Notes under the pieces: model-generated
What the model saw: the letters and a program-made list of their open reading frames with translations, nothing else
The model's database searches: none
What the model was told of the DNA's origin: nothing
From: Anaspis maculata
Lineage: Eukaryota > Arthropoda > Insecta > Coleoptera > Scraptiidae
DNA: 64,000 nt
NCBI GenBank assembly: GCA_949128115.1
Contig: OX421966.1
Span: forward strand, 58,773,416 to 58,837,415
Direction of reading: 5' to 3'
Shown here: positions 3,399-61,814 of the stretch, one piece after another
Numbering within the stretch: the first letter of the stretch is position 1
Layout of the letters: each line of letters opens with the position of its first letter
Position numbers and translations under genes: made by a program

Positions 3399-3422
3399 TA
3401 GAATTTTTAATGACTGAGTTAG

Positions 3423-10904: not shown

Positions 10905-11290
10905 TGTGGGCAACGAGGGGTAAACTGCAGTGGAAGTCTGGTGTACACTACAGTGGAAGTCAGTGGAAGTCCGTGGAAATCACGTGGAAGTCAGTGGAAT
11001 TCAATGGAAATCACGTAGAAGTCAATGGAAGTCTATGGAAGTCATGGAAATCAGTGGAAGTCATGGAAGTCTGTGGAAATCTGTGGAATTCAATGGAAAT
11101 CACGTGGAAGTCAGTGGAAATCTGTGGAAATCCGTGGAATTCAATGGAAATCACGTGGAAGTCAATGGAAGTCTAGGGAAGTCATGGAAATCAGTGGAAG
11201 TCTGTAGAAGTCAGTGGAATTCAATGGAAATCACGAGGAATTAGGTGAAAGTCATTGAAAATCAGTGAAACTTAGTGAAAGTCAGATGGA
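10905..11290 (+). repeat. GTGGAAGTCA / ATGGAAATCA array 1
   Basis: Degenerate tandem repeat with a basic unit of 10 bp (GTGGAAGTCA and variants), so GGAA recurs every 10 bp in direct orientation. Several joints form CACGTG (E-box). Its left flank (GGGGTAAACTGCA) is the reverse complement of the right flank of the related array at 15165-15510, so the two may be opposite ends of one repeat family. Reading frames such as WKSVEVNGN are by-products of the period. Confidence 0.85.
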
Positions 11291-11299
11291 AGTCAGATG

Positions 11300-15164: not shown

Positions 15165-15510
15165 ATGGAATTCACGTGGAAGTCATGGAAGTCACGTGGA
15201 AGTCATGGAAATCAGTGGAAATCACGTGGAAGTCATGGAAGTTCGTGGATGTCATGGAAATCAGTGGAAGTCATGGAACTCAGTGGAAATCACGTGGAAA
15301 TCACGGAAGTCTGTGGAAGTCATGGAAATCAAAGGAAGTCAATGGAAATCAGTGGAAGTCAATGGAAATCCGTGGAAGTCAATGGAAATCCGTGGAAGTC
15401 AATGGAAATCCGTGGAAGTCAATGGAAATCCGTGGAAGTCAATGGAAATCCGTGGAAGTCCATGGAAGTCAATGGAAGTCAGATGGAAATCAGTGGAAGT
15501 CAGTCGATAG
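15165..15510 (+). repeat. GTGGAAGTCA array 2, with a 20-bp near-perfect core
   Basis: Same family as 10905-11290. Between about 15352 and 15465 it is regular: GTGGAAGTCAATGGAAATCC repeated about six times with hardly a change. This shows recent expansion compared with the degenerate flank, which contains several CACGTG joints. Confidence 0.9.
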
Positions 15511-15589
15511 TGGAAGTCTAGTGTACAAAATTTTTCCTTGCGGTTTACCCCTCGGTGGGCAATCAATATGGTGCTTATTTATACCTCCG

Positions 15590-18965: not shown

Positions 18966-19374
18966 GCAACTCGTCTATACATGAATTGGATAGGAAGCTT
19001 GGTCGATTTTGACGTGAAAAGCTGAGTGCAGGATTCGAATTTAGCGGCGGGCCATCTGTTGCCCTGACAAAAACGTCAAAACGCCTCTGACGTGCAAGCC
19101 TGTCAGATTATTATGCAAGATGGCGGTGAAGTTTCCTGTCCAGGTTATGTACTTTCTTGGCTTTTGCAAATGTTTTTTTTTATAACTCGATTGCTCTTGG
19201 TCCCCTAGAGATACACCAACAGTTAGATTAAACTCGTTCGTCCTTATTGTTTTTGTATTTTGGATTGTTGCAGTAATAAAAACTAAAAATAATTAGCAAT
19301 AAAACAAAATTGCTGTGCTAGTGCGTCTATATGTTGTGCGTGACTATAACCTAAAGGCCTTAATGTATCTTCTT

Positions 19375-19793
19375 TTAATAGTAAGTTTCTTTGTAAACTA
19401 CGCCCGATGGGAATTTCCTGATGCACAACTTTCGCAGCTCGTCGAACACCAGGATCATCACGGCGTAGGGCAGGGCGGGCAGGATGTGATGCATTTGGAT
19501 GGACTCGAACTGGAAGATTTTTTGGATTGTGGGACAGTACACGACAAACAGTCCCAGCGCGATCTCGAACACGACGCCCAGGTTCATCACCCAGTTGGTC
19601 ATGCCCTGTTGGAACAGAGACAGCCGTCTGGTCTTGCAGATGAACAGGTCGAAGATTTGCGTCAGCACGATGGCCAGGAAATAGGCGGAGTAGGCCTTGC
19701 GCGAAAGTTTCATCCGCTCTTCGTAGTTCCACTCGCGTCCGAAGTCGTCCGTCACGATCAGGACCTTTTCGTCCAGCCAGTCCATCCTCCTGC
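19375..19793 (-). CDS. ATPase alpha exon 10 (M8-M10, C-terminus)
   Basis: Residues 898-1036 and TAA. Contains the L7/8 stretch [13 protein letters not shown] (usually SYGQEW), [20 protein letters not shown], and M9-M10, and ends ETYY, the C-terminal pair that gates the cytoplasmic ion path in the family. Acceptor GCACGCAG. Confidence 0.96.
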
Positions 19794-22700
19794 CTGCGTG
19801 CGACATAAATTGCGCATGAATTTGGGATAATTGCGAGAGCTTTTACAAGTTGCATTTTTCGCCTCGATCCCATCCGTTACCAACGACCTCAAACTGAGTT
19901 CGTCTTAGAAGACCCGAAAAACTCGCGGCAGGCTACAGGCTCTGGACAAACCGGAACAATGTCAGTTTAAAAACAATTAGTAGTGCTCCAAGATCAAGAA
20001 TGCTTATAGCGTTTTCGAGTCACTAGAACCAAACCAGTTTAGCTCTAAAATCAAAGGATTCGATTGGTTTTCAAAAATCTGTTGCCAATCAGTGATAGCG
20101 ATTTTCGAGCTGAACTAGCTCGGTTTAGCGGTTCGAAAACGCTATTAGTTTCTGGTTGTGGCTGGGCTACTTGGCACAAGCGCTTCCAGACAAAGATTTC
20201 TGTTTTCGTATATTTTTTGCCAAGTACTTCGTGACAACGGCAAACAATTTCCGAGGTTTATCGACGAAGATCAACGCTTGTTATGATTTGTTCCGAGACT
20301 GCTGCAGCCTAGCTCATGGTTGCGCTCTTCAGTTTTGGAGTAGACCGTGCTAGAACTTTATCGGGTTTTCGAGTTCTCGGCCGGGATCCAGGGAAGAAAC
20401 GATCGGACCTACGTGAACTTACTTCCTAGGTTGTACCACAGAAACCCCGCACTGGTCATGATGTGGCAGTACGCCGCGAAACTGGCAAACGACTGTATCA
20501 CGCCGATTTGCGCGTACGTCAGGAAGATCAGTCGGTTGTTGACCAGCCTGTCGTACTTGGGATTCCTCGGCTTCCTGAGCATGATATCCGCCTCGGCCTT
20601 TTCGTACGCCAAACTGATGGCCGGCCACAGATCGGTACCTGTTACATATCCCAAAACGTTCTGAGTTTATTGATTTTTAAAGCAGAAGTTTTAAAGTGCT
20701 CAGCGCATTACCGACGTCTATGATGATGACGGCCATGACGCTGCACACCGGCGGCGTGTTGAAGAAAGTCATCGCGATGAACGGCAAAATTTCCGGCAGG
20801 TTCGACGTCAGCAAGTAGGCGATGCTCTTCTTCAGGTTGTCGAAAATCAAACGGCCCTCCTCTATGCCGGTCACGATCGACGAAAAGTTGTCGTCCATCA
20901 GGATCATGTCGGCCGCTTCCTTGGACACGTCCGAACCGGTTATGCCCATCGCGATTCCTGAAAACAATTTCGATCTTGGGCCATTTTGATCGAACAAAAT
21001 CGATTTCGATGCGCCACAGTCGGATAGGTGCTCGCTGGACTTACCGATGTCGGCCTTTTTGAGGGCCGGCGAGTCGTTGACGCCGTCGCCTGTGACGGCC
21101 ACCACCAGCCCGGATTTTTGAAACGCCTCGACGATCTTGAGCTTCTGCTGCGGACTGGTGCGCGCGAACACGATCTCTCCGAACTGCATGATGGTGGACT
21201 CCAGCTGACCTTCGGCCATGTCCCTCAGGTCCTGCCCGGTGATGACGGCCGCCGTGCAGGCCGCTTTCTCCTGTTCGGTAACCAGGCTGATGGAAACGTC
21301 ACGCCGTAGAGCTATGTCGTACATAGTGATGCTGTCTGAGGACAATATGCCTACCTATGCGTAGTAAGAGAGTAGAATTTGGACAGTGATAGCAGCACAA
21401 CGATCAAACAAGGCACGCCCAAGGTTTCGTTAGATACATACGTCTTCAGAATTTCGTTGCCTATTGGGTAAATGTATATCATAGTAAGTTATGTTGATTA
21501 AATAATCTTGATTCAAAAGTGTCGGACCACCTTGAAAGTGCGGAATATGGAGGTGTAGTAGAGTGCTGAAAAGTTGTTGAAAATATTTTATATGTCTATT
21601 AATTTTGAAGTTATGGTGAGACAAAAGTTGGTCCTTCGATCGCTCCCATTTCCGTTGTTTCAACAGATCTTGGTAGAAAGATCTTAGATCTTAGTAAATT
21701 TTTCCTGTTAATGGAAAAATAATGAGTACAAAAAATCAACCTCTGAATCTGTAGAATTTGTAGAATCTGAATTTTTGTTTTCTATCCAGGGTGAGTCATA
21801 AACTACTAAAATCTAGTTTTCCTGAAAACGCTGGAGCAAACGAAAGAGTTCTATCAAAATGGACTAAGTTTTATTGCACTGTACATAGGTTACGGGACCA
21901 CTGTGACTGTTTGCAGGCACTTAAGGAAAAAAATAATTCTCAGGATTCCAGATAATAGGATAATAATTGTTAGCGCTTCTCGTTCAGCAGTAGAGTATTT
22001 CGGTTCAGCTCGCTTATGCCAACTGTTTTTTATCCGAGCGATTTTCGATCAAGACGTACAAGATCAAGACCTTGGGACTGTTGCCTTTCGAGCTCGGGCT
22101 TTAAGAGCTTGACCGTTTTATGTTAACATCTAGTAGGCCAACGGCTGTCTCACTCTCAAGACTGTGGCTTACTAACACGACGGGTAGATGGCGTTATTTT
22201 TCAAGCGTCTCCCGGTCAAATAACTTGAATTCACTTGAACCGGATTGCGTCAAGTAATATTGCAGTGCGGAAGCTAAACAATCAGCCTACTTTTTTGTTA
22301 TTTAACGTTATAGTGTTTCCTCGCGGCTCTACCTCCACGGCCGCCATGGGCGCGGGATTGATGTCTTATTCAAGGATGCAAAAGTGCCAAAAGTGCTCTA
22401 TGCTGCCAGTTCTTTCTAGGTTGCAAAACCCCTTGATTGTACTGGTAGTTTCCTAGCGGACTCTACTAGCTGTGCAGGCTAGCACCCGAGCTGGCAAAAC
22501 GAGCTCACCCGCCCAAGGTTTCCAAAGAGACCTGTTCGAATTGCGGTGTTAGAACCGCGCACCCCTGGCTTTGTCGCGCCATCAATCACTGGCCGGCCGA
22601 CTGAAGCTCAACCGGGGTGCGTCTTGCACAATCGGACTTAGTTTATACGCAAATCAGCTCGAGTAAATTCAAGTGATTTGACCGTGATTTGACCAAAAGA

Positions 22701-25700
22701 CGCGTAAAAAAACCTCATATGAAAGTGTCAGTAAGCCACAGTTTGAGACAACCCTTGATTTACGAGATATATCATGCGATATACAACTGCTTGACCCAAT
22801 GATTTCACAGCTGATCCAACTTTGAGATGCGCTTCAATCTGAAATGATTTTTCAGGCCGTTCAATGGAATACGTAACGCAGCCGCAACGTTTCTGATTGG
22901 CCCGCAAGGTAATGACAAAACCATTGCAACGCAGCAAGTTCCTTGCCGGCTAGTCAAAAACGTTGCGGCTGCGTTGCGCATTTCATAGAGGGGCCTCGAG
23001 ATTTCAACAGCTGCGAAATCGGGGTTGCGAATGATAATATTGCAGAAGAAAGCCTAACCTGTTTGGCGATAGCGGCGGCCGTGACCGGATGATCTCCCGT
23101 CACCATGATGACCCTGATGCCGGCACTGCGACACTTGGACACGGCATCCGGCACTGAAGGTCTCGGCGGATCGATCATCGATATCAAACCGACGAACCTC
23201 AATCCTGATGGTCAAGCAGAATGCGTTAAGTCACTGGGCGCTCGCAGAACGCGTTAGAGATGCACATAGCAGGATCTCAAGATCTCATCTCTAACCCGAT
23301 ATGGCAGCTACGCAAGAAGATTATTGTGTAGATACGCACCCTTCAGCGGAAAGTTTAGACTGTCCACGTTGAAGCTGAATCCCGGCGGAAATTCCTCTTC
23401 GTCCAGTTCTAGATCGGCGAAGGCGAGGACGCGTTCGCCTTTGGTGCCCAGATTGGTCACGGCCTTCTTGGCGATCTTCAGTTTGTCGGCGTCGAACTCT
23501 TGCGTGATTTTGTGGTGCAGGTACGTCGAGCAATTCTCCAGGACCCGTTCCGGCGCCCCCTTCATCAGCACCAAGTAACGCTTGTCCTGCATCTCGTGCA
23601 CGGACACCTGGTACTTGTTGGCGGAATTGAAGGGGATCTCGGCGACTTTCGGAAACTCCTTTCGCACGAGCTCGACGCCGCCCGTCGCTTTTTCCATGAA
23701 CTTTAAAATGGCCGATTCGCTGGCATCGCCGTGGACTTTCCGCTTGTCCACCGGTTTGTTCTCTTCGCCTTCGACGAACGTGGCCCGGCTGCACAAGGCC
23801 GCCCCCTACTCACAGATACAGTGTTAGGATGGAGGTTGTTTGACATCGTAAGCTTACTGAAATGGTTTGGTAGAAAACTGTATCGACTAACCCGCTCCAG
23901 GCTGTGGAAGTCTTCTTCGTTCGCCTCCACCGAATCCATGTCGTGCAGCACGTGGTGGAGGACGCCGCCGTAGTAAACGTGCGTCACGGTCATCTTGTTC
24001 TGGGTCAGCGTGCCGGTCTTGTCCGAGCATATGACGTTGCAACACCCGAGCGTCTCGATCGCCTCCAGCTTCTTGACCAGGCAGTTCTTCTTGGCCATCC
24101 TTTTGGCCGTCAGCGTCATGCAAGCGGTCATCGTCACCGGCAGACCTTCGGGCACGTTCGCCACTACCAGGGCGATGAAGAACGAAAACGACTGGAAAAA
24201 ATTGAAACCGACGCACATGCTGACGATGAAAAATGTGACGCCCGTCAGCACGGCGATGACCGTGATGATCTTGATGAAGTGGTTGATTTCGCGTCTGATC
24301 GGCGTCTGGCCTTTCTGCAGGGCCGACGTCAGCCCCGCTATGTGTCCCAGCAGCGTGTTCTCGCCGCAGTTGATGGCGATGCCCCTGCCGCACCCCTCCA
24401 CGACGCAGCAAGTGTAAAAAGCCAGGTTGGCCGTTTCGATCGGGTTGTTGTGGGTCAGATCGGTGCTGCGGCTTTGCGGCAACGATTCGCCGGTGATTGC
24501 GCTGTTATCGACCTGCAAAGAAAGATTAATTTGGTGAAGTGTTGATTTTTAGCATCTCGGAACGAGACCATGGCCACGCGCTGCGCTGCCTGGATCTGTA
24601 CAGCAGTTGGTCCAGAATCCCCATGCCCAAATTTTGGCCAAGTACCTAATCTTTCGGAGGGAACTTAAGTTCGGACCATGTATCAGACAACTTCAAATTG
24701 CTTGGCTTTTTCAGGTTCTGTGTGGGAGACTTTCTCGAGCTTTTAATTTCTCTAATTGCCAAAATTCTTGTCCGTAATTACCGCAATCACCACAATCGCG
24801 TCGCGCTATTCGGTGACTGATATTCGAACTACTGATTCGTTCACCAACAAGCGTCTTTAGAAACGGCTCGACCTGACAATGACGGCGGGAATCAGCTGTC
24901 GATTTTCCCTTCCGTTTTGGGTAATTGTTGCTTTGGTTCCTTATCTTACTACGTTCTTTGTGAAGCTAGAGCGAGAAATTGGGTAATTCAGCACTGGAGG
25001 TTGTCACTACAGTCTGCAGCTCATTCTTCAGGTAGGTAGGGTTGGATTGGAGGGAGGGGGTGTCACAGAATGGTCCGCCCCGGGTGCCAAATACGCTAGG
25101 TACGCCACTGGTGGCAGGTGGGCTCCATTTCTTGAAATGAACCATGGGGTATGTACAACATTTCTGCCAAGTGGCATCCCGGCATCGCGATTTTCAAGGT
25201 TGGACCCAAATATGGCGCCTCGCGTCCGGACTACAGTGACATATAGCTAGGTGTTCAAGGGCCTTGAGGCAAACTGTTTCGAAGGCCTCCAAAAAAAAAA
25301 AAGGGATTTAAGGGGAGGTCCACGCCCAAACATGTTCTCCTAGTCCTCCAAACCCACCTTAATAGATAATAATAATAATAATATCAATAATCAATAACCA
25401 ATAGAAACAAAAGTTGCCACATCACACAAACTTCAAAACTTTTATAAAATGAGAAGATAAAAATGACAAAAATTAAATTTATCGACCACGGAGGGTCCCT
25501 TTGAGCACTGGGGCCCTGAGGCCTCGCTTTGCTTATTGATAGCTCCGCCACTGACTTGTGACACTCCACGAATGGCCTTTGAAAACTACCCATCTAGCCT
25601 CTTCGCCTGTAGTACCCAACTACTCGCAAATTACTTGATGGTACTTTACGTTTAGCACCTACCTTCAATCCTTGGGCTTCGATCAGCCTCAGGTCTGCCG

Positions 25701-27257
25701 GGATCCACAAGCCCATTTCTAAAATGACCAGGTCCCCCAGCACTATTTCCTCGCACGGGATGACTTTTCTTTCGCCGTCTCTGATCACCGTCGCCTGTTT
25801 GGGACTCATCTTCGTGAAGCTGTCCAAAATGGCGGCGTTTTTTGCCTCCTGGTAGAAACCGAAGAAGCCCGTCACCAAAATCACCACCATAATTACGACA
25901 CCTGCGACACAAATTTCAGTTATTCTGATTTTATCGAATAAATTTTACGTACTTTTCTCTTCAGATATATTGACAATACTTTTATTGTCAAGAGCAGTGA
26001 TTGCTGCTCTTGACATGCTGATTGATACCATTGATTAAGATCCATAGATTAAGATTTTGTTAGTGGCAACGCTGAATATGGTGCCTTCAACCCCCTGCGC
26101 CCCCTTGCGGGCCAGGCCAAATTCCTGACCAGATTCCCTGCAAAATTTGGATAGTCTCTCTCGCTCTCGAAAGGTGCAGGGGGTAACCGCATCACTTTCA
26201 AGCGTTTCCACCAAAAAAATCTGCTAGCATAGACCTCAACCGATTGGCGTTCAAAAAAAAACCTTTTCGACCTTCTTGTAAAAAAAAGAATAGTAGCTAG
26301 CGGATATAACGAGGGAAAGTCTTCGGTAGTTTGAGAATTTGACGTTTGGTAGAAACAAAGACTACAAGATAGTTCGTGGGTGTGCAAGGAAACTTTGAGA
26401 AAATGCTCGAAGAGGAACAAGGGGAGTGAAAAGACTCCAGAGTCTTTGGGGTTCCAAAAGACCATGCAATTCCTAGTAGACAGTGCAGGCGTTTTTTTTT
26501 TCTGGTTCCATACATAGCTCTTTTGGTTTTGATCTACTGGATGTTCAAGTCCATCTATTCATGGCTTCGAGCTTCGTCTCGGTATTTTTGCCTGTTGATT
26601 CGGTGTTTTGTAGGTGATGACAACGGATTGTCCCACAACAGTCTTGAAAACGTCGGCAATGTCTGCTCGATACGGAAAGCAAATTGCAAAACTACCACAG
26701 CACACAAACCTAAACACAGCTGGTCGAAAGTCGAATGATTGATATTGCCCGTATCCTTGTCGTGCACGTAATTGAAGGCAAAACCGATGATCGACAGCAC
26801 CGCCCCGACCCACAGCAGAGCCGCGAATCCCCCAAACAAAAATTCCAACAACAGCCAGACTTTGGACCTCGGCGGCGAAATGACAAGGGCATTGGGTCCG
26901 TTCTCCACCAGCAGTGCGTCGGCTCGGTCTTGCGTCAGGCCCAGTTCCAGATCAGTCTCGAAACTGAAAAGCCACACGACAATTAACCATCATCACAAAT
27001 ACCTGCCGCCTCTCGGCATGAGTAGACAGATGGCCATCGGCTTGAGACGATCAAAATTCTTACAGCTCCTGCAGTTCTTGCAGGGACAATATGTGCGCGT
27101 TGGTCGAATACTCCGACTTGAACTCCTCGATTTCGTCCTTCGTCCGCTTCTTGGGCATGGATTTCTTGTAATGGATGCCCGTGGAAGACGTCGCCACCTC
27201 GTCCTTGCCCAGCGAGAACCTTCTGCTCGAGCTGCTTTTAGTGCCATCCTTAACCAT
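19375..27257 (-). CDS. Na+/K+-transporting ATPase alpha subunit, divergent paralog (ten coding exons)
   Basis: P-type ATPase catalytic subunit; the family exports 3 Na+ and imports 2 K+ per ATP at the plasma membrane together with a beta subunit. Splicing by hand through nine GT-AG introns gives one uninterrupted 1036-residue frame: 27257-27064, 26963-26710, 25901-25663, 24512-23892, 23805-23340, 23204-23059, 21354-21045, 20957-20712, 20638-20423, 19793-19375. Intron phases are 2,1,0,0,1,0,1,1,1. Landmarks: TGES 236-239, PEGLP 350-354, phosphorylated D393 in CSDKTGT, KGAPE in the N domain, TGDGVND 728-734, and cation residues Y791, S795, N796, E799, D824, D828. It ends ...KETYY as Na,K-ATPases do. 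Exons are GC-rich; introns are AT-rich and carry repeats. It is clearly diverged from the canonical insect alpha subunit, so it is probably a second paralog. It looks functional: no stops and all catalytic residues kept. Confidence 0.96.
20423..20638 (-). CDS. ATPase alpha exon 9 (M6-M7)
   Basis: Residues 826-898: [19 protein letters not shown], the [16 protein letters not shown] cytoplasmic loop, and M7 ([18 protein letters not shown]). Acceptor TAACAG, donor GGAA|GTAAGT. Confidence 0.96.
20712..20957 (-). CDS. ATPase alpha exon 8 (M5-M6)
   Basis: Residues 744-826. [20 protein letters not shown] leads to M5 ([14 protein letters not shown]) and M6 (ending IIIDVG). Cation ligands are kept, but the M5-M6 hairpin [18 protein letters not shown] differs strongly from the usual IPLPLGTVTIL. 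Donor GTC G|GTAATG. Confidence 0.97.
21045..21354 (-). CDS. ATPase alpha exon 7 (P domain hinge)
   Basis: Residues 641-744. [37 protein letters not shown] and [19 protein letters not shown]. The GDGVND hinge coordinates Mg2+ near the phosphorylated aspartate. Acceptor CATAG, donor TCG|GTAAGT. Confidence 0.97.
22135..22770. repeat. Degenerate inverted repeat in ATPase intron 6
   Basis: CTCAAGACTGTGGCTTACTA near 22157 is mirrored by CAGTAAGCCACAGTTTGAGA near 22730, with further arm similarity (GGTCAAAT, TTGAATT.ACT). The arms are several hundred bases apart. An old TIR element is likely; it is non-coding. Confidence 0.55.
23059..23204 (-). CDS. ATPase alpha exon 6 (P domain)
   Basis: Residues 592-640: [20 protein letters not shown], the TGDHP motif, and AAAIAKQ. 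Acceptor CATCAG, donor CAG|GTTAGG. Followed by the largest intron (1.7 kb). Confidence 0.96.
23340..23805 (-). CDS. ATPase alpha exon 5 (nucleotide-binding domain)
   Basis: Residues 437-592. [52 protein letters not shown] and [12 protein letters not shown] are typical of the N domain of Na,K- and H,K-ATPases. Acceptor GAGTAG, donor G|GTGCGT. Confidence 0.96.
23892..24512 (-). CDS. ATPase alpha exon 4 (TGES, M3-M4, phosphorylation site)
   Basis: Residues 230-436. Contains [11 protein letters not shown]3, the M4 unwinding motif [19 protein letters not shown], and [16 protein letters not shown] with the phosphorylated aspartate. The family usually has PEGLL; PEGLP is the SERCA form. Acceptor TTTGCAG, donor CGG|GTTAGT. 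Confidence 0.97.
25663..25901 (-). CDS. ATPase alpha exon 3 (M2, A domain)
   Basis: Residues 150-229, from [20 protein letters not shown] (M2) through the A domain ([35 protein letters not shown]). Acceptor GTCGCAG, donor AAG|GTAGGT. Confidence 0.96.
26710..26963 (-). CDS. ATPase alpha exon 2 (M1 and M1-M2 loop)
   Basis: Residues 65-150. [20 protein letters not shown] is M1. The following extracellular loop is six residues longer than in the canonical subunit, with N129 and Q146 at the positions of Q111 and N122 (pig alpha-1 numbering, hand alignment). Acceptor TTTTCAG, donor TTTAG|GTTTGT. Confidence 0.95.
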
Positions 27258-39763: not shown

Positions 39764-41368
39764 TACAGGGTGATTTATCAACACGTGTTTTTCATCCCAA
39801 CTTTGGTCCGTATTTTTTACTTTTGTGGTCACTCTGTAATTATTGTTCATATCTCGTCTTATGAAGTCATGTTTCAGCTACAGGCTCCATTTTGAAATTC
39901 AGCTGTCTTTTTTCAATCTTGAGATATGACCTCAGACATGCGCAGGGGTGGTTTTTTCCAATAATGTGTCTGTACCTGTATCAATAGAGTATTCCATGGA
40001 TAATAAGGTGTCATGATGACATTTTAGTTGATAATTGTTTTCAACAGTAATGCCGCGTATACCACAAGCTGCACTAGAACGGGTGATTGGTACAATAGAA
40101 GCAGGCACCTATCTATTAGGGATGCTGCAAGAATGTACCAGATGTCACGAAGCAGTGTGCATCGTGCTGTCCAAAGGTTCCGAGTAAATCACACGCCACA
40201 ATATACTCATGGTGGAGGTAGAGGAAGAATTACCACTCCTGCTGCAGATAGACATCTGAGATGAACGGTGTACAGGAACCGAATGATAAACGCCACGAAG
40301 ATACGGCAGGAAGTTAACTTGTTCGATGCCAACGCCACCGTTTCGACGTCTACGGTAAAAAGAAGACTTCATGACGTGGGTCTTCACGCTCGTCGTCCTT
40401 TGAGACGTCCAAAATGGACACGCCAGCATAAGAGATGTCGGCTGCAGTTCGCTAGGGAACATGCCGACTGGAACATGAACGATTGGGCCAATTGCGGGTT
40501 TATCGACGAGTCCAGATTTTGCTTGTGGCCAGATAGCCGGCGCACTCTTGTGTGGAGACGTATATACTTGAATGAAAGAACCAACGAATACTGCACGGTT
40601 GGAGTAGTTCCCTTTGGTGGACGGTCCATTATGATTTGGAGAGGCATCGTGCTGGGGCAACGAACCGAATTGGTGGTTTTCAATGAAAATTCAAACGCCA
40701 TACGTTACCTGAATGAGGTATTGGAGCCTGTAATATTACCTCTAGCGAACGAAGTCGGTGAACAATTTCTGCTCATGGACGATAATGTTCGGCCGCACCG
40801 AGCCGCGGTCGTGAACGAGTTCTTTGAGAGGAACAATATCAGGCGCATGGTATGGCCGGCCATGTCGCCTGATATTGACCCCATTGAGCACGTATGGGAT
40901 CTTCTGCAACGCCGGTTGTCAGACAAAGAACCTGCAACAAAGACCGTGGAAGAATTAACTGAATTCATACAGGAAGAATGGGTGGCTCTTCCACAGCAGT
41001 TGATTGATAACTGCATCAGAAGCATGCCACAGAGGTGCCTGGCAGTTAGGGTAGCCGCAGGAGGTCCCACCCGTTATTGATTTTTATGAGGTTGAATTAC
41101 TGTTTTACGATTCTGCATAACGAAAATAAATCTTATCTGATTCGATAATAATTTATAGTGTTTTTATGAAAATTGAATTAGTGGCACTATCCAACATATG
41201 AGGTCATATCTCAAGATTGAAAAGAGAGAGCTAAATTTCAGAATGAAGTCTGTAGCTGAAACATGTCTCTATAAGACGAGATATGAACGATAATTACAGG
41301 TGTCCACAAAAGTAAAAAATACGGACCAAAGTTGGGGTAAAAAACACGTGTTGATAAATCACCCTGTA
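39764..41368 (+). mobile_element. Tc1/mariner-type transposon (1605 bp)
   Basis: Termini TACAGGGTGATTTATCAACA ... TGTTGATAAATCACCCTGTA are flanked by TA. The inverted repeats extend inward for over 200 bp. It encodes one broken transposase. The length, TA target and DD34E transposase all suit Tc1. This is the only CAGGGTG-type element in the window with a transposase, so its relatives may be what mobilised the palindromic ones. Confidence 0.93.
40050..41080 (+). pseudogene. Tc1-type DD34E transposase, broken
   Basis: N-terminal helix-turn-helix region (MPRIPQAALERVIGTIEAG, then SIRDAARMYQMSRSSVHRAV) and catalytic core. Catalytic residues: D in FIDESRF, D in DNVRPH, and E in SPDIDPIEHVWD, with 34 residues between the last two (counted). 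Two lesions: a frameshift near 40110 between the first and second N-terminal blocks, and TGA at 40262-40264 after DRHLR, where CGA would restore arginine. The remaining frame runs to the stop at 41078-41080. Otherwise well kept, so inactivation is fairly recent. Confidence 0.93.
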
Positions 41369-41992: not shown

Positions 41993-42640
41993 TCAGTTTC
42001 TGGGTCTACCGGTACATAATGTTAATGGTCTTGAATTTATGACGTTCTCACTTTCAGCGATAGCGGTTCTCAACACTTTTTCTCTAGGGAACTTTCCTTT
42101 CAAAATATTCGCCAATCCTCTTTTTATCAACCGTATCAAACTTTCCCAGGCTCCACCCATTGATGGTGAAGCTGGCGGAATGAAATTCCAGTCGATCTTT
42201 TGCACGCTTAGCTCCCGAAATATTTCGTTCTGATCTATCGTATCCATCACTCTCTTCAGTTCCGTCGCCGCGCTTCGAAAATTCAACCCATTATCCGAAT
42301 GGAACACCCTTGGACATCCTCCTCTACTTATAAACCTTTTTATTGCGTTCAAACATCCTTCTTTCGTTAGATCATTCAATATATCTAGATGTATGGCTCT
42401 TACAGACAAACAAGTTCAGTAAATATTATTCCATATCCCTTTTCGTTGCGCCTTCCTACTATACCCATATCGGCCCGGAACAATCCATTCCGGTCCAGTC
42501 TCAGCGAACACAACACTTGTTTCGAATCTGCTCTTCGGCAATTGTCCCATTTTGTTGTTGCGTGTAAGTTGAAGCTCTACTTATTTTGCAATCCATGCAC
42601 TCTCTCTATATCTTCCTTACCAGATTTCTCAAGGCAATGA
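41993..42640 (-). pseudogene. BEL/Pao integrase core and zinc region
   Basis: In minus-strand order: KNANHIGREKVINNVRQKC (zinc region), GQLPKSRF..., then SVRAIHLDI, the catalytic-type FHSDNGLNFRSA, and PPASPSMGGAWESLIRLIKR. A frame change lies near 42410 between the two parts. Confidence 0.9.
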
Positions 42641-45525: not shown

Positions 45526-46399
45526 GCCTTTAGTCACCTTGGCCGCCATACTGAAATCTGTTATCATTCGAACGATTTTCATGAAACTCGTAATCTACTC
45601 TTGTCTCGTCACGACTTCCCAATTTTCAAGTTACATTTCATGGTTCCGCCGCCCTCTTGGCAGTCATAATATCTTTTATTATTTGAATCATTTTCATAAA
45701 ACGTCTCGAATTCACTCTGCTTGTGTTATGAATTCTTATACTTTCTTATCTTATTTTTAACTTGATTTCACAGTTCTAATGTATTTGAAATTGACAAAAA
45801 ATCATCTCTTGCTATGAGAAAATGGTTTTCAAACGGCTTTTTTCTATATTCATATAGTTGGCGAAAAACCGTTTGAGAACTATTTAGGGTGGGTTTGACA
45901 AATTTTTGAGGCGCCCCCGTACAAAAAGTTTTGGTGGAAAAATCTGGTAGCATATGAAATCGGACCTCAAAGATATGGTTAATTTAACTGTTTCTCTTCC
46001 ACGACTCGATATCGCAAACGGTTCTCGAGAAAAATGGGGGTGAGCTCGTTTCATGAATCACCCTGTATAATGGGATTTTTGTCAATTTTTTGACAGTTTG
46101 CCTTCGGAAATCACTCAACAATATGGTAGGTATATTTGTATCCAGAACAGAAAACTACATCAATTGCAGTTGTAAAATACCTATACAGGGAATCCAAAAC
46201 AAATTTTTTTGCGGCACCCTGTATATCATGAGTTGTAAAAAAACTATTATTTCCAATTTTGGAATCGAAGTATAGAGAAAAAAAATCTAGACACAGCTGC
46301 AAAATTTACCTGGATACCTACGTCTATGTGTAGAGGGTATTGGGGCAATTGGAAGAACAATACGAATTGATATTTCAAAGTGAGGTTATTGAGCACCGG

Positions 46400-47450
46400 T
46401 TGTGGAATGATCTCGAGTGTTACACAATGATTTGACTGAACATTCTAGAACATATCAAAACCTTTTAGAATGTTGTGGATTGATCTCAAATGTTCCACAA
46501 TCATCTGGAATGTTTTGGGATGTTTCCGAACGTTTCAGACTATTTCCGAACATTCCAGAATATACTGGAACATTCTAGAATGTTGTGGAATCATCTCTCA
46601 TACTCTAGAATGTTCTGGACAAATGTTCTGGACGGTTCTAGAAATTTTTAGGGGGTCAAACTTTCAACCCTTATATTTTTAATAGCACGCTCTTCAAGTA
46701 AGACCGGGAACCTTCTTCATGGATGGAAAAAATGGAAATTTTTATAATGTCAATGTAATCTGGAATGTTTCATAATGATCTGGAATCTTCCAGGATACTC
46801 CCGAACGTTTTAAACCATTCCCGAACATTCCATAACATATCGGAATATTCTTGAATGTTTTGGAATGATCTCGAATGTTCCACAATGATCTGGAATGTTC
46901 CGCGATATTTCCGAACGTTCCAGATTATTCCTGAACATTCCAGAACATACCGGAACATTCTGGAATGTTGTGGAATAATCTCGAATACTCTCGAATATCG
47001 AATGTTCAGACTGTTCCCGAATATTAATACATATATGAATATCAGAACATCTGAAATGTTGTGGAATGAACTCGAAGGTTCTGGATTGTTCTAGAAATTT
47101 CTAGGGAGCGAAACTTCCTGAACATTCCAGAACATACCCGGACATTCTGAAATGCTGTCGAATGATCTCGAATGTTCTGGGGTGCTTTTGAATCTTCCAG
47201 ACTATTCCAGAATGCTCTGGTATGCTCTGGAATGATCTCGAATGTCCCACAATGATCTGGAATGTTCCGGGATGTTTCCGAACGTTCCAGATTATTTCCG
47301 AACACTCCAGAACATACCGGAACATTCTGAAATGCTGTAGGATGATCTCGAATGTTCCGGAATGTTTTTGAATGTTCCAGACTATTCCAGAATGCTCTGG
47401 TATGCTCTGGAATGATCTCGTATACTCCAGCGAATACTCCCGAAAGACAC
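46400..47450 (-). repeat. Heat-shock-element-like array B (reverse orientation)
   Basis: Same GAAnnTTCnn 10-bp grammar as the arrays at 1-880 and 56560-60030, but oriented on the minus strand (GAACATTCTGGAATGTTGTG, TGATCTCGAATGTTCC). It contains leader-like pieces at 46640-46720 (reverse complement GAAGAAGGTTCCCGG ... ATATAAGGGTTGAAAG) and near 47100, so it consists of at least two leader-plus-array modules. No TATA or Helitron-like end is seen at its 3' side. Confidence 0.8.
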
Positions 47451-47889
47451 CCGAATATTGCAATAGGAAACAAGGCAAAAACATCCGGAAACGAATGGAA
47501 GTCATCCATGCGTAAGAAAAAGTGGTACCACATGAATAAATCGATTTCTTGAAACTGAGTGCAAACCCAGCTATCATTCTCACCCTCATGGACTTAAAAC
47601 TGTCTTTAGAAGTGAATGTGATGTGTTTCGTTACCGGTAAAAGTGTAGAAAAAAAATGGAGTTTTCTTAACTGTACCCTAATAATTTATTGAATCACCCA
47701 ACAGGATATGTCACAAGGAAAAGTTCACAATGAAAAACACAAACAACGATCCCTGCGTCTAACGATAGAGACAGTTGAAAGATCTCTTGGATTGATAGTA
47801 CGGTCGCGTTGAAATTGTGACATCCCTCCTCGATGTCGGAGTATTTTCGGATCATCTTATAGAGAGGGGAGGACGTCAACACATTCGTG

Positions 47890-49669: not shown

Positions 49670-51650
49670 TTGAAAGTATTAGGAGTAATGCTCGATCGGC
49701 CGTCTGTCACAAATTACAAGCCATCAAAGGCGAAACTAAGTTGTTTCACTCAACTATAAGTTGCTCTATATTTTATAAAGATTTGATGGAAATAAATATT
49801 TAGATTTGATGAAATGCAGAGCTTGCATCTGGAGAAAGAAGAATCAAATAACCTGTCAATGGGAGACCTGAAACTTGACAGAGACGTATTTCGCCTCTTG
49901 GTGAAAGCTCATCAGTACTTTTTCTTCTTACTTATTGCATACTCAATACATGCATATTCTACATCAAGTCCTCCCGAATTTGAATTAGTTGTCAAAAATG
50001 CTTAAGCCATAGTTTCAGGCCTGCATCCAGTAACTATACCGAGATCGTGGTTCGCTTTTTATCTTTTGCTTCCAGAACACTAGGACAAAAACGGCGTATA
50101 GGTACCTACCTACTGCAGACAAATTAAATTGAGCATTATTTCTCATCTCGCAGTATAAGTAATAACGACATAATGGCACTGGGATGTAACGGGTTCGCCG
50201 TCTAAATTACAGAATCCCTTGTATGGCCATATAACACTTCTTCTCGTCGGAGCGAGCCATCCTCTTCTCCAGCCTTAATCTTCACGTGCAAATACGACAA
50301 CATGAAACAACAATCAACTATTCTAATCTTTGCCTAACGGAATCTGATGTTTTGGATTCTTGTCGGGCATTAGGCCATTATGTGAGTCTCTCCACCAGAG
50401 TGCATACAAGAACACACACTCGTGTAGGTACTTTGCGAGCCTTATTTTGAAGGAAACTATCGAGTAAATTATATTCAAAATCTACGCTTCTTAGCATACC
50501 CGCTCCTCCAACGGGTCTTTTCTTCTTCTTCTTCTTCTTCGGGAAAAATTAAAGTCAATTAAGATCGATGCATGCACACACTCGCACGCAGACAACACAA
50601 CGGGAATATTATTAGCGTTTGATTTATCGTCTCGGATGGCAAGTTTCCGGTTTAGTTTCGAGAGGCGTTGTCTCATTTTTCAATGTGAAGGCCACAATCT
50701 GTTATGTCACAGTGTATGTGTGAGAACTCGGCAGGAAATTTGCAATTGTAATTTCGTTCTACTAAGTATGCCCGGCTTGCTTGTCAAACTGTATCAAATG
50801 GAAGATTGGATAATAATTAAAGTTCAATGGGACATCCATCGTTGAACCGATAGGCGACACACTACGGCTATAGAAGTTTCTATACCGGAGCTAACCGTTT
50901 CAGGTCTTAGCCGTGTAACTATTCGCATGCTACCTGGAGGGTAGCTTACAGTTATAGACTTTCAACAGCTCTACTGACAATTATGTTGTCTGGTTTCGAC
51001 GTTATAGACATTTCTCATGCGTGCTGCAATAGGACTTCGGACTCGTAGCGATTCAGTCGATACGTTATGATTTCTCAGAAAATTGAAAAGGTGTCAAAAA
51101 TAAGTTTTATCGTAGAGTTCAAGTTATTAACATACTATTGGATATACTCGTATTTATTAACTCATGCAGAATTCTAATAATATCAGTAAGTAGGTAATCA
51201 TAGTGCTCGCATCACGCCGGCGCGGAGGATGTTCATTGCGAACCACAACTGGGGGATAGTCTTGCTCTCAAGGGCATGCTTTATGTGAACACTTGGTTTC
51301 CTATCTTTCTGGAAACGATCGCACGTGAATTCCACCTTGATTTACCCCCTCGATTAATTGCGATCAACTCCTTAAGCATAGTAGAGAAATGCTTGGTGCT
51401 CGCATCATACCGGCGTGCTTATTGAGCTATGCGAACACTTCGACCTCCTATATTTCGGAATAGACCATCGCATTTGAATAATCTACTCTCGACTGACCAT
51501 TAGGATTCCATTTTACATCGCATAAAATATGTACTTTCAAATCCTGGTAAGAGCTCAACGAGAGCTTCACGCTCGTCCTCCACATGGCGCTACTTATCTC
51601 GCCCATACGAAAGCGTAGCCTTCCCGTTTCTGAACAATACGTTTCTTGTT
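49670..51650. other. Intergenic / upstream of the secreted-protein exon
   Basis: Includes a (CTT)n microsatellite at 50516-50540. An upstream exon of the gene at 51655 must lie here or further left, but I cannot identify it. A duplicated GTGCTCGCATCAYRCCGGCG block occurs near 51203 and 51393. Confidence 0.4.
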
Positions 51651-51654
51651 GCAG

Positions 51655-52246
51655 GTACTTGGTGCTGTTGGCGGCACTGGTGTCCTTCATCGCCTGCGCG
51701 GACTCCGGCACGGCCAAGAACCACGAGCTGTTCCAGAAAATCGGCCTGACCAGGCTGAGGGCGCCCAACACCCACCACAGAAAGCGCCTGGCGGTCGAGT
51801 CGCGGCACCACTCCCGCTCCGACGACTCCCACATGTTCATCATCAAGCTGCCCCCGAACCCCCACTACTACGCCCACAACCGTCCCAACGACATCGACTT
51901 CCCGTCGAGCAAAAACATCCCCGTCGGCTTCAAGTCCAACGGCAAGCCGGCCAAGGTCTACCACTGGAACATCCCCGTCCTGAAGAAGATCGTCTCGAGC
52001 AAGCACAAGTCGCGGAACAACGACTACGACGACATCGACTTCCACAACCCGGAGAGCTGGAACGAGGTGCTGGACAAGTCCGACAAGGACCTCAACAGGA
52101 TCAAACCGCTGAAGCCGTCGTTCTACATCCCGGCCAAGCCGAAGAAGGCGTCGTTCATGAAGTACTTTCCCGGCAACGGCAAGCCGCACTCGTTTTACGT
52201 GATCCAGAAGAACAAGAAGGAGCACTACCACAGGTTATTGCCGTGA
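51655..52246 (+). CDS. Secreted basic protein of unknown function, terminal exon
   Basis: The acceptor TTTCTTGTTGCAG ends at 51654. The exon enters with one base of a split codon and gives 196 residues plus stop. It opens with a signal-peptide core (YLVLLAALVSFIACADSG). The mature part is His/Lys/Asn-rich: HMFIIKLPPNPHYYAHN, GFKSNGKPAKVYHWNIPVL, FMKYFPGNGKPHSFYVIQKN, and ends YHRLLP. No enzyme motif and no cysteine framework. Codons are strongly GC-ending, unlike the surrounding DNA, which marks it as a real gene. An AATAAA polyadenylation signal lies at 52472-52477. The first exon is not identified. Probably an insect-specific extracellular protein; function not inferred. Confidence 0.85.
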
Positions 52247-56399: not shown

Positions 56400-59300
56400 T
56401 AAAACTCAGAAACGAGTCCGGGTACGATCAAGGGAGTTATATGGTGGGGTAGACCTTTATCCCCTATCGATGAAGAAGGTTTCCGTTTTTCCCTCAAGGG
56501 CGTGTTTTTGGAGATATAAGGGCTGGAAGCTGAAAGTTTCTCGCCTTCTAGAAGTGTCCAGAACAGTCCAGAACATTCGAGGGTATTCGAGATCATTCCA
56601 CAACATTCCAGAATGTTCTGGTATGTTCTGGAATGTTTGGGAATGGTCTACAGTGTGCGTGCCAAAACTCAGAAGCGAGTCCCGGTACGATCAAAGGAGT
56701 TATAGTATATTGGAAATAGAATATCTACCGGAATTAATTCAAACAAAAACGATTTTTTTACCATGGCTAGCTTTCAGTTCCCTCTTCAACATATCAAAAG
56801 TCCCCAACTCTAGGACTGCTACAAATTAGTATACAGGGTGAAAGTTTATTATTTTTCTTTATTTCCTTTCTTTCTCAAAAAACTGATTACTGAAAAAAAG
56901 GGTTTTAAGCTAGTTTGATAGGCCATAGTCTTCCAATAAACATATAAGAAATATACTACTCAGCAACTGCTGTGTATCAAGTTACAGGGTGAAAACTATT
57001 TTTCATCTTCAATTTTTTTTCTTAGTGGAACTGACCTAGATTGAAGCCGGTTCCAGTTCTTTTGCAAGCTTATAATGTCATACTGAACATATAAAAAGGA
57101 TACATTTCTGCAACTGGTGCTTTTCAATTTACAGGGTGAAAAGTCATTTTCACGTTTCAATTTTTTTCTTGGTGAAATTGGCTCACACATCAATTTCGAC
57201 TGATTCTTCTGTAAACTTGAAGTTTCTAGTCAAACATATCAAAATAATACATTTCTGCTACAGCTATGTTTTTTTTTACAAATTTAAATGTTTGGGTATA
57301 TTCGGGAATATTGCATCAAAAATTCAAAAAATCTTGGAACGCAACCAAACATTTAAATTTGTAAATAAAAACGTAGCTGTAGCAGAAATGTATTATTTTG
57401 ATATGTTTGACTAGAAACCCCAAATTTACAGAAAAACCAGTCGCAATTGTTGTGTGAGCCGATTCCATCAAGAAAAAAATTGAAACGTGAAAATGACTTT
57501 CCACCCTGTAAATTGAAAAGCAGCAGATGCAAAGATGTGTCCTTTTTATATTTTCAGTATGACATTATAAGCTTGCAAAAGAACTGGAACCGGCTTCAAT
57601 CTAGATCAGTTCCACTAAGAAAAAAAATTGAAGATGAAAAATAGTTTTCACCCTGTAACTTGATACGCAGCAGTTGCTGGGTGGTATATTTTTTATATGT
57701 TTATTGGAAGACTATGGCCTATCAAACTAGCCTGAAACCGTTTTTTTCGGTCATCAGTTTTTTAAGAAAAAAAGAACGTAAAGAAAAATAATAGACTTTC
57801 ACCCTGTATACTGATTTGTAGCAGTCTCAGAGTTGAGGACTTTTGATATGTTGAAGAAGGGACTGTAAGCTTGCCATGGTAAAAAAATCGTTTTTGTTTG
57901 AATTAATTCCAGCAAAGCACCTATTTTTTTCTATTTCCAATATACTATTATATGGTGTGGTAGCCCTCTATCCCCCCTCCATGAAGAAGGTACCCGGGTT
58001 AAGCTGAAGGGCGTGTTTTTCAAAGATATAAGGGCTGGAACTTTCGCCCTCTATAATGTCTAGAGTAGTCCAGAACATCCAAAAGTATTCTAAATAAATC
58101 CACAACATTCCAAAATGTTCTGGTATGTTTTAGAATGTTCGGGAATAGCCTGGAACGTTCGGAAACATCGCGGAACATTCCAGATCATTGTGGAACATTC
58201 AAGATCATTCCATAACATTCCAGAATGCTCGAGTATGTTCGGGAATAGTCTAAAACCTTCGGAAACATTCCAGAACATTCCAATTCATTGTGGAACGTTC
58301 GAGATCGTTCCACAACATTGCAGAATGTTCTGGTATGTTCTGGAATGTTCGGGAATGGTCTACAGTGTGCGTGCCAAAACTCAGAAGCGAGTCCCGGTAC
58401 GATCAAAGGAGTTATATGGTGTGGTAGCCCTCTATCCCCCATCCATGAAGAAGGTACCCGGGTTTAGCTGAAGGGCGTGTTTTTCAAAGATATAAGGGCT
58501 GGAACTTTCGCCCTCTATAATGTCTAGAGTAGTCCAGAACATCCAAAAGTATTCTAAATAAATCCACAACATTCCAAAATGTTCTGGTATGTTTTAGAAT
58601 GTTCGGGAATAGCCTGGAACGTTCGGAAACATCGCGGAACAATCCAGATCATTGTGGAACATTCAAGATCATTCCATAACATTCCAGAATGCTCGGGTAT
58701 GTTCGGGAATAGTCTGAAACGTTCGGAAACATTCCAATTCATTGTGGAACGTTCGAGATCGTTCCACAACATTGCAGAATGCTCCGGTATGTTCCTAAAG
58801 GTTCGGAAAATCCCGTAACATCCCAGATCATTGTGGATTATTCGCGATCATTATAAAACATTCCAGAATGTTCCGGTATGTTCTAAAACGGCCGGGAATG
58901 ACCTGGAACGTTCAGAAATATCCCGGAACATTCCAGATCATTGTGGAGGATTCGTTATCATTCCACATCATTTCAGAATGTTCCGGTATGTTCAGGAATA
59001 GTCTGGAACGTTCGGAAACATTCCTGTACATTCCAATCCATTGTGGATTGTTCTAGATCGCTCCACAATATTCCAGGATGTTTTGGTATGTTCTAGAATG
59101 TTAGGGAACATTCCAGATCATTGTAGAACATTCGAGATCATTCCACAACATTCCATAATGTTCGAGAATGTTCGGGAACATTCGAGATCATTCCACAACA
59201 TTCCGTAATGTTCGAGAATGTTCGGGAACATTCCAGATCATTGTAGAACATTCGAGATCATTCGACAACATTCCAGAATGTTCGGTTATGTTCGAGAATA

Positions 59301-60030
59301 GTCTCTGGAACGTTCGGAAACGTCCCCGAATATCTCGTAGGTAGAATATTTCGGTATGTTCTAGAATGTTCGAGAATAGTCTGGAACGTTCGGAAACATC
59401 CCGGAACATTTCAGATCATTATGGAACCTTAGAGATCATTCTGGAACATTCCAAAATGTTCCAGTAGAAATGTTCCATGTTCTGAAATCTCCGGAAAAAT
59501 CGAGAGTATCCGCGATCACTCTACAACATTCCAGAATGTTTGGGAATAGTCTGGAACAATCGGGAACATTCCAGATCATTGTAGAATATTCGAGATCATT
59601 CCACAACATTCCAGAATGTTCCGATATATTCTGAAATGTTCTGATAACTCGAGATTATTCGAGATCATTCCACCACATTCAAGTATGTTCTGGAATGTTA
59701 GGGAATAGTCTGAAACGATCAAAAACATCTTGGAACATTCCAGATCATTGTGGAACATTCCAGAACACCCTTGAAAGTTGTGGAAGGTTCTGGAACATTT
59801 TAAACTATTCGAAGCTTTTTTGGTGTGGGGCCACCTATTGGTAGCGGTACAGTACAGAATATTTGAGAGTATTCGAGATCATTCCGCACCATTCCAGAAT
59901 GTTCCGCTATGTTTTGAAATATTCAGGAATAGTCTGGAACGTTCGGAAACATCCAGGAACATTCCAGATCGTTGTGTGGAATATTCTAGAATATTCTCGA
60001 ATGTTGTGGAATATTCTGGAACATTGTGGG
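56400..60030 (+). repeat. Heat-shock-element-like array C with tandem leaders
   Basis: Three tandem modules. Each starts with a leader (AAACTCAGAAGCGAGTCC, GGTACGATCAAAGGAGTTAT, GGTAGCCCTCTATCCCC, CATGAAGAAGGTACCCGGG, GGGCGTGTTTTTCAAAGATA) followed by HSE-like array. Leaders begin near 56405, 56667 (split by the palindrome at 56703-57947) and 58376. The last array, 58540-60030, is the longest. From 59071 to 59305 I count 47 consecutive 5-bp steps without any indel: 19 of 24 TTC slots and 10 of 23 GAA slots are exact. Five consecutive perfect units occur at 59161-59183 and 59211-59233. Confidence 0.88.
56703..57947. mobile_element. Concentric palindromic element, four layers, TTA duplication
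   Basis: L0 56703-57947 has the perfect 17-bp TIR TAGTATATTGGAAATAG and a TTA duplication (56700-56702, 57948-57950). The uninterrupted leader at 58376-58430 gives the empty site. L1 56832-57808, L2 56983-57657 and L3 57130-57510 each start TACAGGGTGAAA and sit at the central TA of the next outer layer. Steps are 129/139, 151/151 and 147/147 bp. The arms of L1 and L2 are recognisably related to each other (AACATATAARAA.ATAC, CAACTG.TG). The loop is at about 57298-57345. No transposase. Confidence 0.92.
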
Positions 60031-60145
60031 CCATTCAAAACCCTTTTGGTATGGGTGGGGCTACCCATAGGTGGGGGTATATAAAGCAAAATCCGTCGTG
60101 GTTTTAAACGCATGTTTCTTATCAGTTGTTGATAAGAAGCTGGAA
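60027..60145 (+). promoter_or_regulatory. TATA promoter at the end of HSE-like array C
   Basis: TATATAAA at 60078-60085 follows the last HSE units (about 60013) and the spacer GGGGCTACCCATAGGTGGGG. An arthropod initiator-like TCAGTT lies at 60122-60127, inside a 9-bp hairpin (TTCTTATCA...TGATAAGAA). Array, spacer and TATA spacing resemble a heat-shock promoter. Confidence 0.55.
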
Positions 60146-60455
60146 AGCTGATGTGATTGATTGCCCAAACGCAAAGGAGCAGGAGATCTTGCCAGTTCTG
60201 TAGCAAAACGGCGAAAACAAAAAGAAGTAAAAGAACAGTGAAGAAATGAAAAAGTCGAAGAGCGCAAACACGTTTATGTCCTCACGAATGAGCACCGTGA
60301 GAAGCAGAGAAACTGAAGAACAACGAAATGAACGAATTGCGACACAATCTCATGACAAAACACTGCTAATGCAAGTCACCTTTGAGAATATCACCCTACG
60401 AGAAGCGCAAACGAGGACTAGGTTTCGCTTAGGTAGCGGCCCCGGCGAAAGCTAG
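60030..60455 (+). mobile_element. Helitron-like 3' module, copy 2
   Basis: Second copy of 890-1239. The terminal inverted repeat CTAGGTTTCGC...GCGAAAGCTAG ends with CTAG at 60452-60455 followed by T, as in Helitron insertions between A and T. The small frame 60246-60455 gives MKKSKSANTF...STVRSRETEEQRNERIATQS, whose R/E/Q pattern resembles the N-terminal part of insect Helitron proteins. No Rep or helicase. Confidence 0.55.
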
Positions 60456-61814
60456 TATGTATATAAAAATTGCTTCCTTTAGCACTGAACTAGAGCAGGT
60501 TAAAGTTCGACTTTACCGACCGAGCACAAAATTACAGGTCAACAGAACTGTGTGGGGAGCACGCCGTCTGTTTACGAATTTCGTATAGGTACAAAGCTTG
60601 CGTATTTTCTATTGTATAAACTTGCGTATTCTTCTTCGTCTTTGTAATCGGAAACGATCGTAAAAAGTCGTGGCCTTGGATAAAAGCCGCCATATTGTTG
60701 AAATTTTAGCAACGAAGGGGGAAGATGCAGATATATTATGCTAGACAAAATACAAGAAAGATCGACACTTTACGCAAAACCTAGAGTTTTCGTATTTGTA
60801 CGGAGCTTGCGGGCTGTGCATAGGCACGGCTGTGGGTAGGATACGCAAAGGGCTGGTCGATTTTTACGAAACATGAAAGTGGCGTGCTAGCAAAATTCAT
60901 ATACGAACACGAATTTTGTAACTGATTGACGGCGTGCTTCCACCACTGCACTGGTGCGACTTGAGATTTGAGGTTGGAAATCAAGTGTAACAAATGAGAT
61001 GAGTCTTAAACTCACTCATGCAATCGAGCTTCCAGAAGTAGTCTTTCAAAAACCTGATCACAGATGTAAAAGAACTGAGTAGTTTTCATCGTTGTCGATA
61101 GGTTCAATAATGATAGGTTATAATTGCGTCTGTTTTTGAATAAATATAATAATTGTACACTGAAATAGCCGAGGTAATAATAGCTTATGCAATCAGTCTT
61201 GAAGTTGGCGATCAGGTGGTGACTGAGAGTTCAAGTTAAGTATGTCATCATAGGCCACCTTCCCCTAAATAAAAATTCAATTAGCATTATTAAAAATCCT
61301 ACTTCATGCAGGGAAAATCTTGATTAGATCGTAGGATAAGTATAGGTAGAGATATGTTTAGGTATCACATTACAAACTTTTTAACACCAAGCCAAAAGTC
61401 GGTAGGTACACTCCGCGTCAACGGCTGTAAGTACCTACGCGTTTTTATTGGGCAATGACCGTACAACTTAGGTACTTTAGCACCTCGTTTAGCATCTTTG
61501 GATTTCATACTTATTACGACGCCTAGGCCTAGCTATATACTAAACCTTCTAGGTACCTACAAAGTTCTTGACTGCTGATAAGAGCTAACAATATGGATTG
61601 GGGAATAGGAAATCATCTCGCTAGTCTGGCCTGTCCTGTGATGTTGCATAGGTATGTACCTACCTATGATACCTGTATCGATCAAACGTTTTCCAGGTTA
61701 CTTCTATAGGTAGGTAAATATTACCTTACGTTCCCAAGCAATCTCACACCCTCACCCACACGTCGTCGCCCCGCACGTGAATGTGACATTTTATCTGATA
61801 CTTGCGTCTGAAAA
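60456..61814. other. Intergenic, upstream of the CFAP57-like gene
   Basis: AT-rich, with many GTAGGTACCTA motifs from 61320 to 61730. No TATA box or other gene recognised. Confidence 0.45.

Follow-up and report, generated by a model that had tools for sequence, protein, structure and literature searches.

Near-continuous heat-shock element arrays adjoin the probable transposase start of a Helitron family in the beetle Anaspis maculata

Organisation of the locus

The window, by which we mean the whole 64,000-nucleotide stretch of DNA analysed here, covers C6:58773416-58837415 of the 758-Mb assembly of the beetle Anaspis maculata. It contains long arrays in which TTC and GAA triplets alternate every 5 bp, as they do in the heat-shock element (HSE) read by heat-shock factor (HSF). 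The window also holds a reverse transcriptase ORF (1896-3422), minus-strand exons of a P-type (E1-E2) ATPase that by eye resembles a Na/K-ATPase alpha paralogue (19286-26989), a Tc1/mariner-type transposase (40268-41077), a weak integrase-like match (41996-42415) and a DUF4786 gene (51554-52243) whose best named relatives are from the beetles Rhamnusium bicolor (76%), Asbolus verrucosus (72%) and Coccinella septempunctata (68%). Two further arrays with a period of 10 bp, both of the TGGAAGTCAG type (10951-11296 and 15166-15523), were considered as HSE arrays and rejected, with 0 HSE pairs in either.

The Helitron copy E56 occupies 56400-60455 on the plus strand. Its 5' end is altered, and the family's terminal ~35 bp are absent left of 56400; position 56389, an earlier guess at the 5' end from one copy, was discarded when 17 genomic junctions gave another terminus. 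From left to right, a first leader block (56401-56540, an 86% match to 58376-58504) is followed by array a (56540-56655; 21 units, in register) and by the left part of a second leader block (56663-56704), which resumes at 57948 beyond a non-Helitron foldback insertion of 1.25 kb (56702-57948). The inverted arms of this insertion are 89% alike, and it has internal sub-repeats ~147 bp apart. Array b (58060-58368; 60 units with zero off-register steps), a third leader block (58375-58530) and array c (58530-59815), the longest in the window with 253 five-bp units and 4 off-register steps, precede a promoter-like spacer (59804-59870) that recurs at 444-501 and 670-736. The promoter-proximal array d (59855-60046; 36 units) comes last, and beyond it lie a putative TATA box, TATATAAAG (60078-60086), the remnant of a transposase N-terminal ORF (60161-60455), whose frame is broken in E56 and which reaches into the 3' end, and a 3' hairpin with a CTAG end before T (60417-60456, with CTAG at 60452-60455).

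A second copy on the plus strand, E1 (1-1239), has its left part beyond the window and ends in CTAA before T; its arrays lie at 1-440, 500-665 and 720-880, with TATATAAAG at 915-923. The element E46 (46285-47455) is on the minus strand, with arrays at 46390-46640 and 46750-47455, and a flank that is 84% identical over 73 bp relates it to a second type of array-bearing element, which has no TATA/transposase tail.

Extent, register and enrichment of the arrays

The original prediction of kilobase-scale arrays in 56400-60030 stands as regards near-continuous HSEs; the array DNA there is divided among the four pieces a to d, 1,903 bp in total, with no single array. The pieces are separated by the repeated leader blocks, the promoter-like spacer and the foldback insertion. 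A recount of 59071-59305 reproduced the earlier figures exactly, with 19/24 exact TTC and 10/23 exact GAA in an unbroken 5-bp register without indel, and the runs of five perfect units noted there were recovered, the longest perfect run in 58520-60030 being 5 units, at 59161. The related arrays that had been placed at 1-880 and 46400-47450 are both real, the latter on the minus strand. Over the ten array segments of the window we counted 696 units with 13 steps other than 5 bp. The earlier suggestion that a 10-bp period would place every site on the same helical face is wrong, because neighbouring 5-bp units sit on alternate faces and because a period of 10.0 bp, set against the ~10.5 bp per turn of the DNA helix, drifts by a full turn every ~200 bp.

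Exact HSE counts lie far above those of dinucleotide-shuffled arrays, the control that the original prediction had proposed. The window's arrays (3,627 bp) contain 47 exact three-unit HSEs, as against a mean of 0.15 and a maximum of 3 in 100 shuffles, and 58520-60030 contains 20, as against a mean of 0.08 and a maximum of 1 in 200 shuffles. The remaining 58.4 kb of the window has 1. The arrays also score better than shuffled repeats of the same period: when the ten columns of the repeat were permuted, the observed count was reached in 1/5,000 permutations for 58530-59815, in 2/5,000 for 46750-47455 and in 18/5,000 for 1-440. STAT-type sites (TTCn3GAA and TTCn4GAA, 0 and 0 in the arrays) and the GR-type palindrome (0) were rejected as what the arrays spell.

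The arrays contain a ~110-bp unit, read from the sequence, in which a CA-type half and a TG-type half face one another, and such inverted halves could form hairpins or cruciforms serving rolling-circle transposition. We regard this structural role as very improbable. The array adjoins the TATA box, whereas both termini of the Helitron and its 3' hairpin lie elsewhere. Furthermore, when all 64 triplets t were scored for the pattern t-nn-rc(t)-nn-t, TTC gave 11 matches, GAA 9 and ATT 2, with the next at 0, so the symmetry of the array is carried by the HSE letters.

A dispersed Helitron family carries the arrays

The arrays had been placed inside a mobile unit, with Helitrons only alluded to; this unit belongs to a Helitron family that is dispersed through the genome. 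The genome-wide count that had been called for gave, for the tail at 60030-60460, at least 41 matches in the beetle genome (317 first-look candidates, 40 scored). From the 40 matches outside the window we fetched the 20 best-scoring copies, three of the first 23 being skipped, two of these having no 3' end. Hallmarks of Helitrons are a 5' TC after a target A, a 3' CTRR before a target T and a 3' subterminal hairpin. CTRR before T is present in 19/20 fetched copies, which were chosen for reaching that end and whose 20-bp flanks are 0.32 alike, and in both tailed copies of the window. A 5' end of the A-TC form, with A before TCAATATA, was found at 10/17 first-leader junctions; the other 7/17 differ, two of these being tandem. 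In L061 and L063, the CTAG of one element abuts the 5' end of the next. The 3' hairpin folds at -11.7 and -11.0 kcal/mol in the two copies tested, compared with -5.1 and -4.9 in mononucleotide shuffles. These 3' ends, 5' ends and hairpins identify the array-carrying family as a Helitron.

Copies of the family are 1.4-6.6 kb long (15 measured). In all 20 fetched copies the nearest HSE (at least 8/9 letters) stands 17-29 bp ahead of the promoter/leader tail, and the 3 kb upstream of the tail holds from 24 (L065) to 214 (L059) HSEs at the same threshold; L071 has just 6 HSEs within the last 500 bp before the tail. The densest 1-kb stretch of each genomic copy contains 7-15 HSEs, with at least 10 in 9/15 measured copies, and the 59-kb bin of the window, with 17 exact three-unit HSEs, exceeds the density of more than 10 per kb that defines a worm-type cluster.

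The repeat could also be read by another factor. The MCAT motif of TEAD/Scalloped is CATTCC, and the ancestral 10-mer GAACATTCCA holds HSE and TEAD motifs together. If TEAD/Scalloped rather than HSF reads the arrays, growth (Hippo) signals would be what controls the promoter. Indeed, the TEAD-type octamer ACATTCCA occurs 45 times in the 3,627 bp of arrays, as against 0.43 in shuffles, and is present in 18/22 promoter-proximal stretches. However, exact three-unit HSEs are enriched 313-fold and TEAD octamers 105-fold. Similarly, exact three-unit HSEs are found within the proximal 130 bp in 21/22 copies, with a mean of 2.3, compared with a mean of 1.1 for the TEAD octamer. Between elements, the GAA columns, which TEAD does not need, mismatch at 114/578 positions and the CATTCCA columns at 331/1351. 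Enrichment, promoter-proximal HSEs and the per-column pattern favour HSF over TEAD, and we consider a TEAD reading unlikely, although a serious rival.

The tail is a probable Helitron transposase start joined to the 3' end

Downstream of the array lie a GC-rich box, TATATAAAG and a leader, followed by an ORF that extends into the 3' end and that opens with MPKRKGAGDLASSVAKRRK in the consensus of 22 tails. TATATAAAG is exact in 13/22 tails and TATAAA is present in 15/22 and missing from 7/22; the TATA stretch is conserved to much the same degree as the remainder of the tail (0.929 vs 0.918). Among three database candidates, the tail peptide is 80% identical to P0121 (E 1.2e-25) and 65% identical to P0122 over half of the query (E 6.1e-6). 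Both relatives extend past the point at which the window tail jumps to the 3' end, P0122 as far as GKMDNICQFCNAKKFSGETPGFCCMNGR. This stretch of P0122 was 12/34 identical (E 2e-5, calculated for a single comparison) to GKLEHICKYCGSLNFYEE...CCHNGQ of the beetle's best Helitron ORF, which itself matches PF14214 at E 1.9e-60; neither P0121 nor P0122 nor the ORF remnant in the window has a Pfam match. The continuation of the peptide relatives into a Helitron-like Cys motif indicates that the tail probably represents the first part of a Helitron transposase, truncated by an internal deletion. Near-continuous HSEs adjoin a TATA/leader tail in which this probable ORF start is joined to a Helitron 3' end, and the order of arrays, TATA and N-terminal codons is one seen in deletion derivatives only.

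Searches of the beetle genome with PF14214 and P0122, and of flanks and upstream DNA, did not turn up any array-bearing copy that encodes the transposase. PF14214 matched 18 places (24 candidates), made up of a single frame of 1,017 aa, a class whose frames reach 2,411 aa, and fragments. The 1.5-kb flanks of these places have at most 1 exact three-unit HSE each, those of the long-frame class falling within the ORF. For two of the 18 places, upstream DNA was covered to and past the ORF start: an array is absent from a further 6 kb upstream of the 1,017-aa gene and from a further 5 kb upstream of a long-frame gene, where the ORF start lies 4.8 kb into the added sequence. P0122 gave 45 matches in the genome (89 candidates), none extending past residue 72, so that the Cys motif was never reached. 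A long-length protein search for an autonomous partner yielded 16 candidates, 0 at E 0.001, and a search of the PDB gave no relevant match. In viral contigs, 30 records contain the 3' end word and 15 a six-unit HSE; the peak count of exact three-unit HSEs per record, 8 in 8.3 kb, was taken as chance. Separately, the PF14214 Helitron-like ORF class (L075-L087) includes many frames of ~2,300-2,400 aa without a stop and several members tied in match score, which suggests recent activity of this class.

Age and conservation of the copies

The tails are 0.87-0.97 identical to their own consensus, with 0.955 for the closest pair and 0.90 for the median pair. Variation by codon position is flat (0.070, 0.070 and 0.061), with a dN/dS-like ratio of 0.96, indicating that the copies decay neutrally. 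Within the arrays, the HSE columns are better kept than the spacers, by a difference of 0.072 compared with 0.000 +/- 0.012 in 60 neutral simulations. Between elements, mismatches amount to 221/1156 (19.1%) in the core and 224/773 (29.0%) in the spacer, over 11 alignments whose sites are not independent. For the G of GAA, 64/194 positions (33%) are mismatched, and core G over both strands, at 118/378, fares little better than spacer G, at 137/389. These unprotected G columns weaken any argument for selection from core conservation, and shared letters might also be favoured by concerted exchange among 10-bp units; we do not put HSE-column conservation forward as selection for HSF binding. Depletion of indels, at 0.075 gap openings per mismatch in arrays, 0.193 in tails and 0.058 in leaders, was dropped as an argument for selection because gapped alignment is ambiguous in period-10 DNA.

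These patterns bear on the reading that the arrays are a neutral minisatellite, a 10-bp repeat that spells HSEs by accident and expanded in a Helitron without a regulatory role. Repeats are common inside Helitrons, a tandem history is clear here at about 10, 50 and 100 bp, and both the neutral decay of the copies and the unprotected G of GAA agree with such an origin. Against it stand the retention of HSE columns above spacers, a pattern that concerted exchange could mimic, and the array end, which is fixed beside the promoter in 20/20 fetched copies. On balance we think a neutral minisatellite unlikely.

A putative heat-shock promoter and its relation to known systems

We propose, with a probability of about 0.73, that the arrays are an enlarged heat-shock promoter of a beetle Helitron transposase, retained in deletion derivatives and predicted to bind HSF. 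Under heat stress, HSF trimers would load cooperatively along the array, and in complete elements the loaded array would turn on transposase expression. The present copies would be internal-deletion derivatives that keep the promoter, the first codons and the ends and are mobilised in trans, and the arrays would have lengthened as 10-bp units, ~100-bp units and whole modules of leader plus array were duplicated. The beetle genome encodes an HSF DNA-binding domain on C1 (E 3.5e-28), with two more pieces on C9, one of them with a stop. In C. elegans, Helitron1_CE RNA rises on heat shock in an HSF-1-dependent manner (PMC6765114), and HSF-1 and Pol II occupancy increases on Helitron HSEs (PMC6927752). 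HSF-1 DNA-binding domains are reported to bind cooperatively to most tested HSEs, up to five at once (PMC9148306).

In Caenorhabditis, HSEs are carried by Helitron1_CE, Helitron2_CE, HelitronY1_CE, Y1A_CE, Y4_CE and Helitron7_CB; eight HelitronY4_CE copies in C. elegans have more than 100 HSEs each, and 14 and 85 HSEs lie upstream of the Rep-Helicase gene in Helitron1_CE and Helitron7_CB, respectively (PMC6927752). Worm and beetle Helitrons share overlapping clustered HSEs upstream of the transposase, and many worm copies are likewise non-autonomous. They differ in host, in that HSF-1 binding and heat induction have been measured in worms, whereas both are predicted from sequence in the beetle, and in that the worm HSEs precede a Rep-Helicase gene, whereas a transposase-coding copy with the array was not found in the beetle. 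Garrigues et al. (2019) report HSE enrichment in Caenorhabditis only, among UCSC genomes with annotated Helitrons, and an absence of high-density HSE clusters across a broad bilaterian range (PMC6927752). The HSE pattern printed in that study, which may not be the form that was run, has 0 matches in our window, so that it may be worth re-examining other genomes.

The original prediction held that arrays of this size in an insect would be new. The source is indeed an insect, a beetle, and our searches of the open-access literature turned up no account of such arrays in the Helitrons of insects. The insect host appears to be the new part; the size as such is already known from the published account of HelitronY4_CE (PMC6927752). 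Among other systems, the wheat Helitrons Feng8/Xuan have a heat-activated transposon promoter, with neither HSE nor HSF in the main text of the report (PMC13286980). ONSEN of Arabidopsis, a retrotransposon, also has a heat-activated promoter; the beetle family is a Helitron. Human satellite III is an HSF1-bound tandem repeat and shares with the beetle arrays long tandem DNA with HSF sites, but the beetle arrays do not form a tandem block outside mobile elements and sit instead inside dispersed elements with ends.

A broader reading, which we hold tentatively and at somewhat less than even odds, is that Helitrons have acquired a link to HSF in more than one animal phylum, and that the beetle arrays act as dispersed heat-shock enhancers and an HSF sink, as in Caenorhabditis. 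The coupling would have arisen by convergence or by horizontal transfer, and dozens to hundreds of HSE arrays would have been seeded. If so, transposon copies would shape the beetle heat-shock response. A beetle family with worm-like architecture would mean that the coupling recurs or moves between phyla, and it opens insect tests of whether Helitrons use the heat-shock response for their own transposition and whether the remains they leave behind rewire or titrate that response.

Perfect six-unit HSEs occur at 75 places genome-wide, compared with 3 for the reversed pattern. Among the 50 listed of these 75 places, 6 have one of the 41 tails at a distance of 6 kb or less (0.03 for random placement) and 11 are one identical 28-mer; part of the 75, unlike the family in look, may be chance matches. 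Two of the places with the identical 28-mer (in L093 and L094) belong to the second element type, located at 362-1890 in L093, which carries HSE arrays of the same kind but lacks the TATA/transposase tail.
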